Assembly: GCF_000299335.2 (NCBI RefSeq) | Contig: NZ_CP004387.1 | Location: 930,001-994,000 of the forward strand | Direction of reading: 5' to 3' | Source of the DNA: Isoalcanivorax pacificus W11-5 | GTDB taxonomy: Bacteria > Pseudomonadota > Gammaproteobacteria > Pseudomonadales > Alcanivoracaceae | Length of the DNA stretch: 64,000 nucleotides | Shown here: in pieces, positions 55,906-64,000 of the stretch | Numbering within the stretch: the first letter of the stretch is position 1 | Layout of the letters: every line of letters begins with the position of its first letter | Translations under genes and position numbers: made by a program | Notes under the pieces: generated by a model | The model's database searches: none | The model's input: the letters and a program-made list of their open reading frames with translations, nothing else | Told to the model about the DNA's origin: nothing

Positions 55906-55957
55906 CCTTATGGGCAAAGGCAATCAGCAGGCCGGTGTCAGCGACCAGGCACGCCAT
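55895..55957 (-). pseudogene. Truncated PIN-domain (VapC-like) toxin remnant
   Basis: A 20-codon frame starting ATG at 55957 and reading MACLVADTGLLIAFAHKADA before a stop. LVADTGLLIAFA is the N-terminal strand of PIN-domain ribonucleases with the first catalytic Asp, and KAD follows as in VapC proteins. Everything downstream is the MITE-like element. The start overlaps the end of the antitoxin gene, as expected for a toxin-antitoxin operon. It cannot encode an active toxin. Confidence 0.7.
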
Positions 55958-56276
55958 TCATATCCTCCAGCTCCTTCTGGAGTTCGTCAGCACCGTAACG
56001 CACCACCGCCACGCCGTGCGTGCCGCACAACGTGATAAAGGCCTCCTGGGAAAGGCGCGCGATCCTGGCGGCTTTCCCGAGGCTGACGACATCCGTGGCA
56101 AAGAGTTTCAGGGCGAGCGCCGCCAGCACGCCTTCCCGCACGAGGGTTTCATCGAACGGCAACGCAAGGAATACGGGGCGGCCGTGCTTAGCCACCAGAG
56201 CGAGCTCTCCGGCTTCTGCGCCACGGACCAGATCGCCAGTGCGGTCGCGCAGGTCACGTATGCTGAAGGTTTCCAT
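55938..56276 (-). CDS. Antitoxin, Phd/YefM N-terminus with UPF0175-like C-terminus
   Basis: A 112-residue protein. The N-terminal part, METFSIRDLRDRTGDLVRGAEAGELALVAKHGRPVFLALP, is a Phd/YefM DNA-binding antitoxin fold. The C-terminal part, DVVSLGKAARIARLSQEAFITLCGTHGVAVVRY, matches UPF0175/VapB-like helix-turn-helix antitoxins. This looks like a combination antitoxin for the PIN toxin whose remnant overlaps its 3' end. The ATG at 56276 was chosen because an operator-like inverted repeat lies just upstream; an upstream in-frame ATG would run through the operator. Likely autoregulated. Confidence 0.8.
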   Translation of the reverse strand: METFSIRDLRDRTGDLVRGAEAGELALVAKHGRPVFLALPFDETLVREGVLAALALKLFATDVVSLGKAARIARLSQEAFITLCGTHGVAVVRYGADELQKELEDMNGVPGR

Positions 56277-56293
56277 GGCATCACCTGAGAATG

Positions 56294-56321
56294 ATTTGTG
56301 CCCACAAATGCTGGCACAAAT
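56294..56321. promoter_or_regulatory. Operator-like inverted repeat of the antitoxin gene
   Basis: ATTTGTGCC (56294-56302) and GGCACAAAT (56313-56321) are perfect inverted 9-mers with 10 bp between them. A further CACAAAT half-site lies in the spacer at 56303-56309. It sits 17 bp upstream of the antitoxin ATG, the usual place for the operator of an autoregulated toxin-antitoxin operon. Confidence 0.7.
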
Positions 56322-56530
56322 TGACTGGGGGGTGCAATGTGATGCATGTCCGTTGCCCCGCCAGCCCAATGTCCTGGTTCATTCCCTGGTACTGGCTGCT
56401 CAGTCTCCACGCTTCCTCGTTACACGTCTTCGCCTTGCCGGGGTGTGACACCCGTCACGATATCTGCTTGAATCTTTCCAGCGCCGTACACGGGTGGGGG
56501 CGGCTACAACATAAGAAACAGGGATGCACC

Positions 56531-57493
56531 GTGAACCGGCTGGAGCGCCTATATCACATTCATGAGACCTTGCGTGACGCCCGTCATCCGGTGCCGCTGC
56601 GGCGACTGGTTGAGGCAATGGAGGTCACTGAGGGGGCTGCCAGGAAGGATATCCGCTATCTGCGTGATCATTTCCGGGCGCCGATCAAATACGACAGCCA
56701 TCTGAACGGCTATTACTACGACCCGGAGGCTGACGCTTTTGAGCTGCCGGGCCTGTGGTTCACTGCTGCGGAGCTGCACGCTCTGCTGGTGTGCCAGCAA
56801 ATGCTGGAAGGCCTGCAGTTCGACGCCATTGAAGACCTGATGAAGCCGCTCAAGGACCGTATCCGAGAACTGCTGAAAGCAGGAGGGCAAGGGGACGTCG
56901 ATATCAGCACCCGCGTGAAGGTCCAGCCAGTCCATTACCGCAGTGTCCACAGCGCCACGTTCCAGGTGGTGGCGGATGCCCTGATGGCGGGGCGGCAGCT
57001 GAGTTTTGAGTATCAGGCGCGTAGCAAGGCCGAACGCAGAATGCGCCAGGTGAGCCCCCAGCGGCTGCTGTATTACCGGGATAACTGGTACTTGCTGGGC
57101 TGGTGCCACCGGGCCGATGCCCTGCGGCTGTTCTCCCTGGACAAGATCGAGCACCCGGTGGCTCAGGACAGGCAGGCGCTGCAGCGCACCGATGAGGAGC
57201 TGGAGCTGGATACCGAGGGCAGCTTCGGTATTTTTCTGGGCACGGCCCGTGAGCGTGCTCACTTGCGTTTCAATGCCAGCGCGGCCAAGTGGGTCGCGGA
57301 TGAGCGCTGGCATCCGGACCAGCATGGGGAGTGGCACGGAGAGCATTACCACTTGACGGTCCCTTACGCCAATCCCACGGAACTGATCAAGGAAATCCTG
57401 CGGCATGGGGCGGATGTGGAGGTGCTGGGGCCACTGGAATTGCGAGAAGCGGTGGCTGAAAGGTTGCGCGAAGCGGTGAAGCGGTACGGTTAG
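56531..57493 (+). CDS. WYL-domain transcriptional regulator
   Basis: A 320-residue regulator. The N-terminal helix-turn-helix (RLERLYHIHETLRDARHPVPLRRLVEAMEVTEGAARKDIRYLRD) is followed by a WYL domain with the namesake residues Trp186-Tyr187-Leu188 in DNWYLLGWCHRADALRLFSLDKI. The WCX region follows, ending ILRHGADVEVLGPLELREAVAERLREAV. It starts at GTG after AGGGA. WYL proteins sense nucleic-acid or nucleotide ligands and often control defence loci. It is encoded directly before the tracrRNA/cas9 genes on the same strand as cas9. Confidence 0.9.
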   Translation: MNRLERLYHIHETLRDARHPVPLRRLVEAMEVTEGAARKDIRYLRDHFRAPIKYDSHLNGYYYDPEADAFELPGLWFTAAELHALLVCQQMLEGLQFDAIEDLMKPLKDRIRELLKAGGQGDVDISTRVKVQPVHYRSVHSATFQVVADALMAGRQLSFEYQARSKAERRMRQVSPQRLLYYRDNWYLLGWCHRADALRLFSLDKIEHPVAQDRQALQRTDEELELDTEGSFGIFLGTARERAHLRFNASAAKWVADERWHPDQHGEWHGEHYHLTVPYANPTELIKEILRHGADVEVLGPLELREAVAERLREAVKRYG

Positions 57494-57590
57494 CAGGTGC
57501 TGGGGGGGTACTGTACAAAAGGGTAGTGCCGTTCTGGTACAACGTGGCTTGTTAGGCTTGGGATAGTGGGACAGGAGAATGATGATGAAC

Positions 57591-57618
57591 AAAAAAGAAG
57601 AAAGCCCCCGAAGGGGCT
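57591..57618 (-). terminator. Rho-independent terminator of tracrRNA
   Basis: On the minus strand AGCCCC-TTCG-GGGGCT is followed by TTCTTCTTTTTT. A stable 6-bp GC stem with a UUCG tetraloop and a T-rich tail, 287 bp gap between the WYL gene and cas9. Confidence 0.88.
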
Positions 57619-57693
57619 ATCCAGTATCGGTGATGTCGAGCCGAAGCTCTCATCTTGTTACCGAAGGTCCCCACCATCGGAAAGTTCGATACC
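57591..57693 (-). ncRNA. tracrRNA of the type II-C CRISPR system
   Basis: About 103 nt on the minus strand, opposite to cas9. The anti-repeat (57668-57691) is a 24-nt identical match to the plus-strand CRISPR repeat, so it pairs with the minus-strand crRNA repeat. A CCTT bulge and a second helix (TCGG-T-AAC) follow, completing the usual bulged repeat:anti-repeat duplex. Next are a GAGC-TTCG-GCTC hairpin (57638-57649) and a terminal stem. The promoter is at 57700-57728 and the terminator at 57591-57618. Ends were inferred from these signals, not from RNA data. Confidence 0.88.
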
Positions 57694-57699
57694 GTTGGG

Positions 57700-57728
57700 A
57701 CTCTAGGCGAACATGCTACCACTGTCAA
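57700..57728 (-). promoter_or_regulatory. Promoter of tracrRNA
   Basis: On the minus strand TTGACA (57723-57728, perfect -35) and TAGAGT (57700-57705) with a 17-bp spacer. A start at the G at 57693 would begin the RNA two bases before the anti-repeat. It lies within 85 bp of the cas9 start, inside the cas9 upstream region. Confidence 0.8.
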
Positions 57729-57780
57729 TCGCCTTATTTCCGGGATCAAACAATTTGTAATTGAGTTGAAGGAACCAATC

Positions 57781-60700
57781 ATGCGTTATCGTGTGGGGCT
57801 TGATTTGGGAACCGCGTCCGTGGGCGCTGCGGTATTTTCCATGGATGAGCAAGGCAATCCGATGGAGCTGATCTGGCATTACGAGCGCCTTTTCTCAGAG
57901 CCTCTTGTGCCGGACATGGGGCAACTTAAGCCCAAGAAAGCTGCACGACGTTTGGCTAGGCAGCAGCGCCGCCAGATTGATCGTCGTGCGTCGCGCTTGC
58001 GCCGTATAGCAATCGTATCGCGACGCCTTGGTATTGCCCCCGGTAGAAATGATTCTGGTGTGCATGGGAATGATGTACCCACACTGCGTGCTATGGCGGT
58101 TAATGAGCGCATTGAGCTTGGCCAGTTGCGCGCTGTGTTACTGAGAATGGGTAAGAAGCGTGGTTATGGCGGCACTTTCAAGGCCGTTCGTAAGGTGGGG
58201 GAGGCAGGTGAGGTCGCTAGCGGCGCATCGCGACTGGAAGAAGAGATGGTTGCTTTAGCCTCTGTGCAGAACAAAGACTCGGTGACGGTTGGTGAATATC
58301 TTGCCGCGCGTGTTGAGCACGGGTTGCCAAGCAAGCTGAAAGTGGCCGCAAACAATGAATATTACGCTCCGGAGTATGCACTATTTAGGCAATATCTGGG
58401 GCTGCCTGCGATCAAAGGGAGACCTGACTGCCTGCCAAACATGTATGCATTGCGTCATCAGATTGAACATGAGTTTGAGCGTATATGGGCAACACAATCC
58501 CAGTTCCATGACGTAATGAAAGATCATGGAGTAAAGGAAGAAATCAGGAACGCGATTTTCTTTCAGCGCCCTCTCAAATCACCGGCAGACAAGGTCGGTC
58601 GCTGTTCTCTGCAAACCAACCTGCCGCGTGCGCCACGGGCACAAATAGCGGCTCAGAATTTCCGTATTGAAAAGCAGATGGCGGATCTTCGTTGGGGTAT
58701 GGGGCGCCGAGCGGAGATGTTGAATGACCACCAGAAGGCTGTCATTCGTGAACTGTTGAACCAGCAGAAAGAACTCTCCTTCAGAAAGATCTACAAGGAG
58801 CTTGAGAGGGCCGGCTGCCCCGGCCCGGAAGGCAAGGGCCTGAATATGGATCGTGCCGCCTTAGGCGGCCGCGACGATCTTTCCGGTAATACTACGCTCG
58901 CGGCTTGGCGCAAGCTGGGTCTGGAGGATCGCTGGCAAGAATTGGACGAAGTAACGCAAATTCAGGTGATCAATTTTCTTGCGGACCTCGGCTCACCGGA
59001 ACAACTGGATACGGATGACTGGTCATGCCGATTCATGGGAAAAAACGGTAGGCCACGCAATTTTTCTGATGAATTTGTTGCTTTCATGAATGAGCTGAGA
59101 ATGACAGATGGATTCGACCGGCTTTCGAAAATGGGGTTTGAGGGTGGCAGGTCGAGTTACTCAATCAAAGCACTGAAAGCACTCACCGAGTGGATGATTG
59201 CGCCCCATTGGCGAGAAACACCAGAGACGCATCGGGTTGATGAAGAGGCAGCGATACGGGAATGTTATCCGGAGTCGCTGGCTACGCCCGCACAAGGTGG
59301 CCGACAAAGCAAGCTGGAGCCGCCTCCGTTAACGGGTAATGAAGTCGTCGATGTTGCCCTGCGCCAGGTGCGTCACACTATCAATATGATGATTGACGAC
59401 CTGGGGTCTGTGCCTGCGCAGATCGTGGTTGAAATGGCACGGGAGATGAAGGGCGGCGTCACCCGGCGTAATGATATCGAGAAGCAGAACAAGCGTTTTG
59501 CCAGCGAGCGTAAGAAGGCTGCGCAAAGCATTGAGGAGAATGGTAAAACTCCGACACCTGCCCGAATTCTGCGTTATCAGCTGTGGATAGAGCAAGGGCA
59601 CCAGTGTCCCTACTGTGAATCCAATATCAGTCTTGAGCAGGCGTTGAGCGGCGCATATACAAACTTTGAGCATATTCTACCCCGCACCCTGACACAGATA
59701 GGGCGCAAGCGCTCGGAGCTCGTGCTGGCCCATAGGGAGTGTAACGACGAGAAGGGCAACAGGACGCCGTATCAGGCATTTGGCCATGACGACAGGCGGT
59801 GGCGAATTGTTGAACAGCGTGCCAATGCATTGCCGAAGAAAAGCTCGCGCAAGACGCGGCTGCTATTGCTCAAGGATTTTGAAGGCGAAGCACTGACCGA
59901 TGAGTCCATTGACGAGTTTGCAGATCGTCAACTACATGAAAGCTCGTGGCTTGCCAAGGTTACAACTCAGTGGCTTTCATCACTTGGTAGTGATGTATAC
60001 GTATCGCGTGGATCGCTAACTGCGGAGTTGCGCAGGCGCTGGGGGCTAGACACGGTTATTCCACAGGTGCGCTTTGAATCAGGCATGCCGGTTGTCGACG
60101 AGGAGGGGGCGGAGATCACCCCAGAGGAGTTCGAGAAATTCCGACTTCAATGGGAGGGGCATCGCGTTACCCGTGAAATGCGTACAGACCGTCGTCCGGA
60201 TAAACGTATAGATCATCGCCACCACCTAGTTGACGCCATTGTTACAGCTCTTACCTCAAGGTCTCTCTATCAGCAGTATGCCAAAGCGTGGAAGGTTGCT
60301 GATGAGAAGCAGCGTCATGGCCGTGTTGATGTAAAAGTTGAGCTTCCGATGCCCATTCTGACGATACGGGATATAGCGCTGGAGGCGGTTCGTTCTGTGA
60401 GAATTAGCCATAAGCCTGACCGGTATCCGGACGGTAGATTCTTTGAGGCTACCGCTTATGGTATTGCGCAGAGATTAGACGAGAGATCAGGTGAAAAGGT
60501 GGATTGGCTTGTTTCACGAAAATCTCTGACGGACCTGGCTCCAGAAAAGAAGTCTATAGATGTAGATAAAGTGAGAGCGAATATTTCCCGAATTGTTGGA
60601 GAGGCGATTCGATTGCATATTTCAAATATTTTTGAGAAGCGAGTTTCGAAAGGCATGACGCCACAGCAGGCACTACGTGAGCCGATTGAGTTCCAGGGAA

Positions 60701-61122
60701 ATATTCTCAGGAAAGTGCGGTGTTTCTACAGCAAGGCAGATGACTGCGTTCGGATTGAACATAGTAGTCGCCGAGGGCATCACTACAAAATGCTTCTCAA
60801 TGATGGTTTCGCATATATGGAAGTTCCCTGCAAAGAAGGGATTCTGTATGGCGTACCAAATCTCGTGAGGCCAAGCGAAGCGGTTGGAATTAAGAGGGCG
60901 CCTGAATCCGGAGATTTTATTCGATTTTATAAGGGAGACACCGTCAAGAATATCAAGACGGGTAGAGTGTACACGATTAAACAGATTCTCGGCGACGGAG
61001 GAGGTAAGTTGATCCTTACGCCAGTGACTGAGACTAAGCCGGCTGATTTACTTAGTGCAAAATGGGGACGTTTGAAGGTTGGTGGGCGCAACATACATTT
61101 GTTAAGGCTCTGCGCAGAGTAA
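57781..61122 (+). CDS. cas9: CRISPR-associated endonuclease Cas9, type II-C
   Basis: A 1113-residue RNA-guided DNA endonuclease. RuvC-I is RVGLDLGTASVG with Asp8. The Arg-rich bridge helix is at about 49-75. The recognition lobe follows. RuvC-II is IVVEMARE with Glu551. The HNH domain has CPYC, His631 in FEHILP and Asn655/Asn660 in ECNDEKGNRTPYQ. RuvC-III is HHLVDA with His815 and Asp818. The C-terminal part is the PAM-interacting region. All catalytic residues are present. Length is in the compact II-C range and there is no csn2 or cas4. The ATG at 57781 follows AAGGA; upstream in-frame codons fall in the tracrRNA gene. Base composition is clearly less GC-rich than the core genes, most of all at 60360-61120, suggesting transfer. 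The PAM cannot be inferred here. Confidence 0.96.
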   Translation: MRYRVGLDLGTASVGAAVFSMDEQGNPMELIWHYERLFSEPLVPDMGQLKPKKAARRLARQQRRQIDRRASRLRRIAIVSRRLGIAPGRNDSGVHGNDVPTLRAMAVNERIELGQLRAVLLRMGKKRGYGGTFKAVRKVGEAGEVASGASRLEEEMVALASVQNKDSVTVGEYLAARVEHGLPSKLKVAANNEYYAPEYALFRQYLGLPAIKGRPDCLPNMYALRHQIEHEFERIWATQSQFHDVMKDHGVKEEIRNAIFFQRPLKSPADKVGRCSLQTNLPRAPRAQIAAQNFRIEKQMADLRWGMGRRAEMLNDHQKAVIRELLNQQKELSFRKIYKELERAGCPGPEGKGLNMDRAALGGRDDLSGNTTLAAWRKLGLEDRWQELDEVTQIQVINFLADLGSPEQLDTDDWSCRFMGKNGRPRNFSDEFVAFMNELRMTDGFDRLSKMGFEGGRSSYSIKALKALTEWMIAPHWRETPETHRVDEEAAIRECYPESLATPAQGGRQSKLEPPPLTGNEVVDVALRQVRHTINMMIDDLGSVPAQIVVEMAREMKGGVTRRNDIEKQNKRFASERKKAAQSIEENGKTPTPARILRYQLWIEQGHQCPYCESNISLEQALSGAYTNFEHILPRTLTQIGRKRSELVLAHRECNDEKGNRTPYQAFGHDDRRWRIVEQRANALPKKSSRKTRLLLLKDFEGEALTDESIDEFADRQLHESSWLAKVTTQWLSSLGSDVYVSRGSLTAELRRRWGLDTVIPQVRFESGMPVVDEEGAEITPEEFEKFRLQWEGHRVTREMRTDRRPDKRIDHRHHLVDAIVTALTSRSLYQQYAKAWKVADEKQRHGRVDVKVELPMPILTIRDIALEAVRSVRISHKPDRYPDGRFFEATAYGIAQRLDERSGEKVDWLVSRKSLTDLAPEKKSIDVDKVRANISRIVGEAIRLHISNIFEKRVSKGMTPQQALREPIEFQGNILRKVRCFYSKADDCVRIEHSSRRGHHYKMLLNDGFAYMEVPCKEGILYGVPNLVRPSEAVGIKRAPESGDFIRFYKGDTVKNIKTGRVYTIKQILGDGGGKLILTPVTETKPADLLSAKWGRLKVGGRNIHLLRLCAE

Positions 61123-61127
61123 CATGC

Positions 61128-62039
61128 ATGTCGGAGCAGCACATTCTCCTTGTTGAAAGCCCGTGCGCACTGAATATTCACCTTGAGTGCCTTAAGGTTT
61201 CACGCAAAGGTATGGAGCCTTTAAGGCTCCTGCCTTCTGATATTGCAGTGCTATGTCTGCACCATCATACGGTGCAATTATCGGTTCATGTGTTGCGAAA
61301 GCTGACAGAGGCGGGTGCCGCTATTCTGGTGACGGATGATCGTCACCAGCCCGCAGGATTAATGTTGCAGGATTACGGCCGTCCTAATGCGGTGGTTAGG
61401 CTGCGTCAACAGATCGCATTGGAACAGAGCGGCCAGGACAGGCTGGTCTGGCAGCAGCTGGTTTCATGGAAGCTGCGTACGCAAAGTAGGCTTCTCGGCA
61501 AGTTGGAGCGAAGATCTACCGCCCGGCTTGCGCGCTTGGCCGAGGCTGTAGAGCCGGGCGATGCTGGCCACCTCGAAGGCCAAGGTGCCAGGCTCTATTG
61601 GCGTGATCTTTTTGATGTGCCTTTTAAGCGCCAGAAACGTGGTGCAGAAGACCCGATTAACACCCGCCTCAATTTTGGTTATGCGCTACTTCGATCGTTG
61701 GTGGCGCGTGAGCTGGCATTCGCGGCATTGCGGCCGGAAATTGGCGTTGGGCATCGAAGCACGGAGAATCCTTTCAATCTGGCGGATGACTTCCTTGAGC
61801 CATACCGTTTCCTAGTAGATGAGATTGTGGTGTCTTATCCTCCTGATGAAAATTCAGAGTTTGATGCGCAGAGCAGGAAGCGCCTGATTTCCGATCTTTT
61901 TGAGCAAACGGTCTGCTTGAATGGGCAGGATTTCCGATTACCAGCGGCGATTCGCAAGACGGTAGCGAGCTATCTTCGAATTCTGGAAGCAGGAGGGGGT
62001 GGGCGCAGACGCAAGCTGGAGCTGCCGGAGTGCCCGTAA
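61128..62039 (+). CDS. cas1: CRISPR integrase Cas1
   Basis: A 303-residue spacer-acquisition integrase. The metal-binding residues are Glu150 in HLEGQGARLYW, His209 in GVGHRSTENPFNLADDFLEPYR, and Asp221 (or Glu224) in the same block. DPINTRLNFGYALLRSLVARELAF is the conserved helix. The ATG at 61128 begins MSEQHILLVE; an earlier in-frame ATG lies inside cas9 and was not used. It starts 5 bp after the cas9 stop. Confidence 0.94.
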   Translation: MSEQHILLVESPCALNIHLECLKVSRKGMEPLRLLPSDIAVLCLHHHTVQLSVHVLRKLTEAGAAILVTDDRHQPAGLMLQDYGRPNAVVRLRQQIALEQSGQDRLVWQQLVSWKLRTQSRLLGKLERRSTARLARLAEAVEPGDAGHLEGQGARLYWRDLFDVPFKRQKRGAEDPINTRLNFGYALLRSLVARELAFAALRPEIGVGHRSTENPFNLADDFLEPYRFLVDEIVVSYPPDENSEFDAQSRKRLISDLFEQTVCLNGQDFRLPAAIRKTVASYLRILEAGGGGRRRKLELPECP

Positions 62040-62069
62040 TGCAACATGGCAATCAATGGGTGGAGAGTC

Positions 62070-62378
62070 ATGTGGTTAATCGCCGTATACGACTGCCCCA
62101 TGACCACGCCGGAAGCCCGGCATGATTACACGGTATTTCGCAAGCGCTTGCTGAATCATGCGTTCATACAGGTTCAGTATTCCCTGTATGTGCGTCATTT
62201 TCCGACCATGGCAGCTGCCGAGGCCATGATTCAGCGTCTTAAGCACCAGATTCCCCCTGGGGCCAAGGTGGCCTTCATGCTCATGACGGACAAGCAGTAC
62301 GGTATGACGCGAGAATTTCTTGGGCCAAGGCCTTACCAGCACCGGCCGGATGCTCCAGAGCAGATTATGCTGATCTAG
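62070..62378 (+). CDS. cas2: CRISPR-associated protein Cas2
   Basis: A 102-residue partner of Cas1 in spacer acquisition. MWLIAVYDCPMTTPEARHDYTVFRKRLL carries the ferredoxin-fold start with Asp8. The ATG at 62070 follows GGAGA; an ATG 24 bp upstream has no ribosome-binding site. It ends 68 bp before the first repeat. Confidence 0.92.
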   Translation: MWLIAVYDCPMTTPEARHDYTVFRKRLLNHAFIQVQYSLYVRHFPTMAAAEAMIQRLKHQIPPGAKVAFMLMTDKQYGMTREFLGPRPYQHRPDAPEQIMLI

Positions 62379-62404
62379 CAGATCACTTCGAATCATTGCT
62401 TTAG

Positions 62405-62437
62405 GTAAAGAAAACCCCAACTCCATCAAGGAGTTGG
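62405..62437 (-). terminator. Rho-independent terminator facing the CRISPR array
   Basis: CCAACTCC (62417-62424) and GGAGTTGG (62430-62437) with the loop ATCAA. On the minus strand the stem is followed by GGTTTTCTTT, while on the plus strand no T run follows. It ends 9 bp before the first repeat and so should terminate a minus-strand array transcript. Confidence 0.7.
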
Positions 62438-62446
62438 AGTGATTCA

Positions 62447-64000
62447 GATGCTATCGAACTTTCCGATGGTGGGGAATCGGAACATGCGGGTCCGCGTGCT
62501 GGCCGGACAGTTCGATGCTATCGAACTTTCCGATGGTGGGGAATCGGAACCATCAGCATGGAGCGCAGGCCGTACTGCTCGATGCTATCGAACTTTCCGA
62601 TGGTGGGGAATCGGAACATGCGGAGTACGACATCTATCCGCCAGGTGGATGCTATCGAACTTTCCGATGGTGGGGAATCGGAACTATGTGGCAGGAGCAG
62701 ATGGACCGTCTCCAGATGCTATCGAACTTTCCGATGGTGGGGAATCGGAACGGTGAATGGGGTCACATCGCCTCCCTGAACGATGCTATCGAACTTTCCG
62801 ATGGTGGGGAATCGGAACACCATGACCACGCTGGTGGCAGCTCTGCGAGATGCTATCGAACTTTCCGATGGTGGGGAATCGGAACCTGGTGAAGCACATC
62901 CTTGCCACTCATGAGGATGCTATCGAACTTTCCGATGGTGGGGAATCGGAACGGTGACGCTTGACGGTATCGAGGTTTCCTGGATGCTATCGAACTTTCC
63001 GATGGTGGGGAATCGGAACGATGTAATCCTGATCGATTAGCGCCGGAATGATGCTATCGAACTTTCCGATGGTGGGGAATCGGAACGTACGGGCATTTGA
63101 TTGGAGAGCCAACTGGGATGCTATCGAACTTTCCGATGGTGGGGAATCGGAACACACACAGCCGCACAGCTGCGCCAGCGAGTGATGCTATCGAACTTTC
63201 CGATGGTGGGGAATCGGAACGTGCAGGATCTGATACAGCGGATGCTCAACGATGCTATCGAACTTTCCGATGGTGGGGAATCGGAACAAGGGGGCATTGA
63301 ATGCCGGCAACTCACCCGATGCTATCGAACTTTCCGATGGTGGGGAATCGGAACCCCTCAATGATGTTGTTGAACACCCGCTCAGATGCTATCGAACTTT
63401 CCGATGGTGGGGAATCGGAACCGGAGCCGTAATCGTTCCTATACACCGACCGATGCTATCGAACTTTCCGATGGTGGGGAATCGGAACGTGCTGGCTGCG
63501 CGGGTTGATTCGATTATTGATGCTATCGAACTTTCCGATGGTGGGGAATCGGAACGGTCAACGAGTGCTGCATTCTAATTGCATCGATGCTATCGAACTT
63601 TCCGATGGTGGGGAATCGGAACTGGGCGAAGCCACGGCCGCCTGCCTGGAAAGATGCTATCGAACTTTCCGATGGTGGGGAATCGGAACGGCCCTGAGCG
63701 TCGGGTCGCGCCGGTTCGGGATGCTATCGAACTTTCCGATGGTGGGGAATCGGAACCTGCGGCGTGAGGCTGCCCTGCGGGCTGATGATGCTATCGAACT
63801 TTCCGATGGTGGGGAATCGGAACCGCGACAGGAGCAGGTTGTGGCCCTGGTCCGATGCTATCGAACTTTCCGATGGTGGGGAATCGGAACATGCAGGAGG
63901 GCGTCACGCAGGAGCGCGACGATGCTATCGAACTTTCCGATGGTGGGGAATCGGAACCAAGGAGCGCGTCGATGAATCCGGCGTCACGATGCTATCGAAC
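62447..64000 (-). CRISPR. Type II-C CRISPR array, 24 repeats seen, open at the window end
   Basis: Repeats of 37 nt at 62447 + 67n (n = 0 to 23), the last cut after 13 nt by the window end. All 23 spacers are exactly 30 nt. On the plus strand the repeat starts GATGCTATCGAAC and ends GGGGAATCGGAAC; every complete copy that I read is identical, including the terminal G/C. The expected crRNA strand is minus, judged by the tracrRNA match and the terminator beside cas2, so the crRNA repeat begins GTTCCGATTCCCC. The leader end and newest spacers would then lie beyond the window. Spacer 1 is 62484-62513 and spacer 23 is 63958-63987. Confidence 0.95.

Follow-up and report, generated by a model that had tools for sequence, protein, structure and literature searches.

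A type II-C CRISPR-Cas locus with a deep-branching Cas9 at a putative CRISPR-type exchange site in Isoalcanivorax pacificus

Which kind of CRISPR-Cas system stands behind the gene for a WYL-domain regulator in Isoalcanivorax pacificus W11-5, and what brings the two together? The locus lies at the end of the 64,000-nucleotide stretch of DNA analysed here (the window), which covers positions 930001-994000 of a genome that consists of one contig of 4,168,427 bases. A sequence-only reading had described it as a complete type II-C locus with a tracrRNA. Our answer, to which we assign a probability of about 0.82, is that this is a type II-C locus with a Cas9 from a rare and deep branch, that its cas operon would be controlled by the WYL protein, and that it would form a cassette at the site where the genus exchanges CRISPR types. 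Throughout, G000 denotes the genome that holds the window, other G numbers the genomes of relatives, and L numbers contig stretches.

Type assignment and the Cas9 branch

The frames of cas9, cas1, cas2 and the WYL gene are all open, and a CRISPR array is present as well (Table 1). The window Cas9 scores 391 bits against the NCBIfam Cas9 model TIGR01865 (cut-off 100), and the window Cas1 matches the type II Cas1 model. The best solved-structure relative of the Cas9 scores 134.5 bits; we take this relative and the matches that follow it to be II-C enzymes. A scan confined to the neighbourhood of the locus named neither csn2 nor cas4, and within that scope the earlier statement that both are missing stands. 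So does the description of a less GC-rich block, with 52.3% GC at 57494-62440 versus 64.5% at positions 1-57000 of the window. Model matches, gene set and the tree described below agree: the locus is real, its frames are intact, and these sequence features support its assignment to type II-C, with a tracrRNA, cas9, cas1, cas2 and a 37/30-bp array.

The Cas9 was placed in a tree of 49 rows built on the RuvC-HNH core, in which two rows are II-A, none is II-B or II-D, and most are unnamed and count as II-C by not being II-A. Row starts in the underlying alignment were set mechanically; several rows (for example G139, G233b, G415, G521 and Pasteurella) have no N-terminus, the G444 row stops at a contig edge, and G262 is represented by a C-terminal piece only. 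Genome searches had returned Cas9 matches in 7 of 193, 27 of 369 and 9 of 390 genomes, in sets that overlap. Two contig scans by exact short peptide patterns, which miss much, gave no clade member and one (L053, taken as G262), respectively.

The window Cas9 groups with those of G006, G388, G262 and G444 in a clade with full support (100/100) and a long stem (1.29). In keeping with the type given by the sequence-only reading, this clade is nested among the non-II-A rows and far from the two II-A rows; II-A is excluded with 100/100 support, and 13 of the 46 inner branches are open. Wherever the neighbours of non-II-A rows are annotated, cas1 and cas2 lie beside cas9 and csn2 is absent. Identity to the window Cas9 is 66% for G006, 42% for G388 and for the G262 piece, and 38% for G444 (clade range 37-66%), and it falls below 29% over long alignments for every other row with a match. 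A clade Cas9 was found in only one of the six other genomes of the genus that were searched, G006. Judged from these alignments, the window Cas9 belongs to a rare gammaproteobacterial clade that forms a deep branch. As a II-C system the locus is ordinary in its parts and likely mechanism; its Cas9 branch stands apart in these comparisons. The clade includes a decayed member in G262 (L053 8817-12660), in which cas9 is broken in several frames, cas1 is cut short, a single repeat is left and the tracrRNA sequence persists.

Among the catalytic residues listed in the sequence-only reading, D8, E551, H631, H815 and D818 are invariant among the alignment rows that reach these positions, N655 is conserved in 48 of the 49 rows, and N660 varies between rows. 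Calling the 1113-residue enzyme compact is not borne out, as five annotated plasmid Cas9s from outside II-A have 1015-1092 residues and one has 1148. The suspicion that a CPYC motif in the HNH domain forms a metal site gains weight from the alignment, in which CPYC makes up one half of a complete CxxC...HxxC set, spaced CX2C-X38-HX2C in the window Cas9, of putative zinc ligands. The full CxxC...[H/C]xxC occurs in 7 of 49 rows: the five clade members and two further rows, a Novosphingobium plasmid Cas9 and G373. In most of the remaining rows the first cysteine is conserved and the second is replaced by serine or threonine. The Novosphingobium protein (L262) and G373 (L099) carry the full set though they lie outside the clade. 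Since the tree places these two apart, the ribbon would have been gained or lost more than once.

Table 1. Coordinates of the features discussed, in window positions unless stated otherwise
Feature	Position	Strand	Remarks
UPF0175 / Phd-YefM-like antitoxin gene	55941..56330	-	Pfam: UPF0175 passes its cut-off, Phd_YefM does not
Palindrome TGTGA-N6-TCAC upstream of WYL (candidate operator)	56444..56458	.	87 bp before WYL start
WYL-WCX regulator gene	56531..57493	+	start set at GTG per relatives; Pfam WYL and WCX pass cut-off
Element CTGTACA(A/T)AAGGGTAGTGCC(A/G)TT(C/T)TGG between WYL and cas genes	57511..57537	+	
tracrRNA: anti-repeat, nexus hairpin, terminator hairpin	about 57592..57693	-	conservation, folding, covariation, repeat duplex
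tracrRNA intrinsic terminator	57603..57618	-	
Promoter-like site of tracrRNA, TTGACA-17-TAGAGT	57700..57728	-	1 found versus shuffle mean 0.3
cas9, 1113 aa	57781..61122	+	
HNH segment, putative zinc ligands C609, C612, H651, C654 around catalytic H631	59605..59742	+	alignment
cas1	61128..62039	+	start set at MSEQHILL; TIGR03639 213.8 bits (cut-off 120)
cas2	62046..62378	+	open frame, family match
Array terminator beside cas2	62414..62440	-	same place and strand in G006; in G388 by eye only, scan reported none
CRISPR array, 37-bp repeats, 30-31-bp spacers	62447..64000, on to genome 995100	-	40 repeats, 39 spacers

The WYL gene and its chromosomal site

The regulator claimed in the sequence-only reading is present, although its gene precedes the start that had been given for the locus (57494). 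Its protein passes the Pfam cut-offs for WYL (76.1 bits) and WCX (59.4 bits); HTH_11 reaches 22.8 bits, below the cut-off of 25. A search of 46 family genomes (E 1e-20 or better) found the WYL family in ten, and the surroundings of all ten were examined. In every case cas genes of the same orientation come next (for G005, on the far side of a contig break), and they belong to three types: II-C in two genomes (G000 and G006), I-E in four and I-F in four. NCBIfam named Cse1 and Cas3 in three of the I-E loci (G023, G040 and G032), the fourth being G005, and Cas3f in the I-F loci of G015, G019, G028 and G024, with Cas1f in three of these four. One G005 contig ends in the WYL gene at residue 273 and another starts with the WYL tail (residue 297), followed by I-E cas3 and cse1; we infer that the two belong together. 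Identity of the WYL protein to that of the window is 90% in G006 and, along 273 residues, 91% in G005, compared with 85% and 84% for the adjacent acyl-CoA dehydrogenase. Cas1 and Cas2 of G006 are 73% and 92% identical to their window counterparts.

Two sequences recur around these genes. The palindrome TGTGA-N6-TCAC lies 60-87 bp before the start of all ten WYL genes; apart from these places, 222,651 bp of family DNA, taken on both strands and with the window and L009 overlapping, hold one distinct site, in and around spacer 5 of the G000 array. Between WYL and the cas genes, the element with AAGGGTAGTGCC occurs in the two II-C operons as well as in the I-E operon of G005. The I-E operon of G023 shares its first half and most of its second half, only GTGCCATTTGG resembles it in the I-F operons of G015, G019 and G028, and no clear copy was seen in G024, G040 or G032. 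Both sequences are candidate operators. The WYL protein would control the cas operon and, by way of the palindrome, its own gene, and as a regulator it would not be tied to type II. A WYL accessory of Cas13d has reportedly been described.

The palindrome can also be read as a CRP/Vfr-type site, so that control would come from cAMP and not from the WYL protein itself, an explanation that holds a real but minority chance. TGTGA-N6-TCAC fits the CRP consensus, which counts in its favour. By eye, however, the palindrome spans the -35 region and spacer of the WYL promoter in several species, which is more typical of an autorepressor, and the pattern is almost absent from the rest of the family DNA sampled, a small sample for a global regulator. 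CRP control of the E. coli cas genes has been reported, with conflicting results according to the relevant part of PMC8616872.

Neither the company that the WYL gene keeps in other genomes nor its chromosomal site figured in the sequence-only reading. The site is flanked by an acyl-CoA dehydrogenase gene on the left and a host-attachment-family gene (Pfam PF10116) on the right. The sister genome G004, the closest relative found, is 98% identical to the window in the dehydrogenase and 97.5% in ZapE, and the last stretch the two have in common is the antitoxin gene between the dehydrogenase and WYL (about 94% nucleotide identity, to about 56348). Past that point G004 (L290 3939-10380) has, after the same dehydrogenase, a I-E operon without WYL. 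The host-attachment gene of G004, only 73% identical, is on a separate contig, which breaks off shortly past the gene and leaves the right edge of the site there unclosed. G005 has the same left side followed by WYL and, across the contig break, by I-E; its host-attachment gene is on a third contig and is followed by an AbiEi-like gene and a I-E-like array of 23 in-register copies. Between the flank genes there is one small gene in G003 and about 0.1 kb in G001, and the right-hand (host-attachment) gene was not found in G002. The AbiEi-like antitoxin gene beside the G005 array (Pfam; L282 1353-1892) has a parallel in G006 (L024 1976-3437), whose array adjoins the start of the same AbiEi-like gene and an AbiEii-like neighbour, both recognised by eye.

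On these gene maps, the states of the site in the genus are II-C with WYL, I-E with WYL (as pieced together for G005), I-E without WYL, or nothing. Two close pairs, G000 with G004 and, by a flank identity of 88%, G006 with G005, thus differ within each pair in the CRISPR type at one site. The WYL tail of G005 and the bases next to it are 73% identical to G006 over 148 nt, versus 91% for the WYL body, a pattern consistent with a crossover close to where WYL ends, though on a short stretch of evidence. Tentatively, and at odds just short of even, we propose that the family has a type-independent CRISPR control module, made up of the WYL gene, a palindromic operator and an operator-like element, and that this module stays in place when the cas genes and the array that follow are replaced by those of another type among II-C, I-E and I-F, within the genus at one site, by recombination in WYL and the flanks. 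If true, one regulator and operator would serve three CRISPR types, immune types could be swapped without loss of control, and the presence of unrelated CRISPR types among closely related bacteria would be easier to explain. The putative exchange site with its type-independent WYL module is the part able to surprise a specialist. A literature search that covered few subscription journals found no publication on the clade Cas9 in Alcanivorax or on the WYL and exchange pattern.

We consider it less likely than not that WYL is a bystander of a defence-rich site, with no control over cas and with promoter sequences shared through common descent of the WYL region. The link between WYL and cas genes is one of sequence only; inspection by eye shows no WYL gene next to cas9 in three of the five clade members, the I-E operon of G004 has none either, and in G032 and G040 about 0.8 kb separates WYL from cas3. 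Against this, all ten WYL genes of the 46 genomes stand in the same direction before cas genes of three types, the palindrome persists while the WYL proteins drop to about 50% identity, and the downstream element is common to II-C and I-E operons.

The tracrRNA, the array and its spacers

The tracrRNA gene sits between the WYL gene and cas9. The RNA is present, as the sequence-only reading had stated, and it pairs with the repeat; its strand is minus, with promoter-like and terminator sites of its own. Its core of 95 consecutive nucleotides is identical in G006, where the Cas9 has diverged to the 66% given above, and the same RNA precedes cas9 in three more distant relatives. Compared with shuffled sequences its folding has a z-score of -3.24, and, among five sequences of which two are nearly the same, 11 of the 28 predicted pairs show at least one compensatory change; the nexus and terminator hairpins account for ten of the 11. 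The identity with G006, the fold z-score and the compensatory pairs place this tracrRNA beyond chance. Rfam gave no match at gathering scores.

The repeat:anti-repeat duplex has an energy of -57.0 kcal/mol in the window's species, and cognate duplexes lie between -54 and -57 in all four species tested. This pairing puts the crRNA on the minus strand. A plus-strand tracrRNA or array was considered and rejected: both terminators are on the minus strand, and same-sense pairing reaches -26.8 kcal/mol versus -57.0. RNase III would process the duplex of repeat and tracrRNA. Across window 57582-57693 (minus strand) and the matching RNA of four relatives, GUAUC at the tracrRNA 5' end and GAUAC past the nexus are invariant in all five sequences and could close the free tracrRNA. 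A leader of cas9, if transcribed from 57511-57590, would cross the tracrRNA gene antisense.

The 23 spacers counted in the sequence-only reading reflect the end of the window, which cuts the array; the full array in the genome (992447-995100) comprises 40 identical repeats with 39 spacers between them, and 34 of these spacers are distinct. Some spacers recur in the distal half (21=25=32, 24=29=30 and 26=33), which suggests duplications internal to the array. To pair with the tracrRNA, the array has to be transcribed on the minus strand, in the direction of cas2 and of the terminator beside it. Far-end repeats are decayed in the G006 and G388 arrays; all 40 are perfect in the window's own. The position of the terminators and the decayed far-end repeats of the relatives make it probable that Cas1-Cas2 would add new spacers on the cas2 side, which is the 3' end of the transcript. 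Consensus scans of the arrays detected no promoter within each repeat. Such a promoter is not universal in II-C, as the F. columnare repeats lack the usual one according to the relevant part of PMC8092290, and its absence was therefore not taken as excluding II-C.

Spacers were searched against the own genome, 57 relatives (twice) and phage and plasmid collections for the G000 and G006 arrays, and against phages only for G388. Nearly all were tested only inside whole-array searches, and some scoring took the best five or fewer candidates per genome. The 94 distinct spacers of the three arrays gave chance-level or single-spacer matches but no convincing protospacer, and hence the search and alignment of flanks proposed in the sequence-only reading yielded no shared PAM motif. 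G006 spacer 38/41 matches Salicola phage CGphi29 at 27/30 (3' flank ACAGGAGA) and Klebsiella phage Geezett at 26/30 (flank ACAGGAGA). These matches were rejected as PAM evidence, as they fall in a widespread coding motif (at least 120 IMG/VR stretches) and the two flanks look homologous. The spacer resembles a very common ARAAIAKA-like phage motif, often followed by a GGAG stretch (loci L118 2012-2041, L119 1497-1526, L122 onward). A match of 27/30 to G020 (flank AATGGCAA) is an isolated case. The candidate loci contained 32 matches at five or fewer mismatches, and reversed spacers gave none; the 30 listed were all of spacer G006_38, which had itself selected most of those loci, so that they are not independent evidence. 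IMG/VR had 0 matches to seeds from four further spacers or spacer groups, or 3 unconvincing ones for a shortened codon pattern, and G388 spacers matched Alteromonas phage PB15 and Vibrio phage ValSw3-3 at 26/29 (E 4).

Four spacers of the G006 array (L024 3674-6823) represent a single site in three variants, which differ by synonymous changes only in the frame RSARDYNPLE. The full codon pattern of this frame gave 0 IMG/VR matches, and a shortened one gave 3 there and only the array itself in 193 relatives. We read these spacers as probable repeated uptake from one phage-like site, which would mean that the system of this relative was active in the past.

That the window's locus is a dead relic which no longer protects the cell is improbable. 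The empty spacer searches and the decay of the G262 clade member would fit such a state, but the three cas genes are open, the Cas9 catalytic residues are intact and all 40 repeats are identical. The impression in the sequence-only reading that the locus may be functional agrees with the sequence evidence.

Several points weigh against the answer given at the outset. WYL is missing, by eye, beside the cas9 genes of G388, G262 and G444 and lies outside the II-C module itself, and hence it goes with the chromosomal position rather than with this Cas9. The palindrome and the downstream element were defined after viewing these sequences, and the ten WYL genes represent few independent lineages, given the close relationship among three of the I-F copies and between two of the I-E copies. 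Consensus scans of the G000 and G006 arrays and of the DNA just past their far ends (650 bp for the window's) recognised no promoter, with one weak match at the G388 array. The spacer searches, as described, ended without a convincing protospacer. An AlphaFold model (three rows) had a pLDDT of 37.4 and was discarded; with this model unusable, the putative zinc site is read from the alignment alone.

Comparison with known systems

Cas9 with its dual RNA would cut both strands of invading DNA beside a 3' PAM, through RuvC and a zinc-stabilised HNH. With a branch far from the others compared, an HNH that is possibly metal-stabilised and probably a PAM of its own, this Cas9 would add to the enzymes worth testing. 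The putative zinc ribbon within HNH is shared with type II-D, where, in the part of PMC9755519 that treats it, such a finger marks Cas9d and related compact enzymes, and the window Cas9 has a weak IscB match (17.2 bits, cut-off 175); an early-branching II-D-like enzyme in place of II-C is nevertheless very improbable, since the Cas9d (II-D) model gives 112.2 bits, far under its cut-off of 375, the ligand spacing CX2C-X38-HX2C differs from the CX(2,4)C-X(27,31)-CX(2,4)[C/H] stated there for the Cas9d finger, and the clade is nested among other non-II-A rows, in a tree that holds no II-B or II-D rows.

As a type II-C locus it can be set beside those of Neisseria, Campylobacter and Riemerella, with which it has in common the set of cas9, cas1 and cas2 only and a tracrRNA upstream of cas9. 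It differs from known II-C systems in a Cas9 less than 29% identical to the rows outside its clade, a 37-bp repeat, the zinc-ribbon HNH and a repeat that looks promoterless. The predicted entry of spacers on the cas2 side matches the published polarity: according to sections of PMC12638026, PMC6008519 and PMC8092290, II-C acquisition adjoins cas2, at the 3' end of the transcript.

Genes covered by the PADLOC 'WYL' models for CRISPR loci likewise encode a WYL-domain protein beside cas genes; here, one family stands before I-E, I-F and II-C, with a common upstream palindrome. Exchange at a fixed place is also known from II-C loci, in which cas9 is replaced by in situ shuffling of effector modules, as set out in part of PMC12669027. 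In the shuffling described there only cas9 changes within II-C, whereas at the site studied here whole types, II-C and I-E, would alternate at one position in the chromosome.

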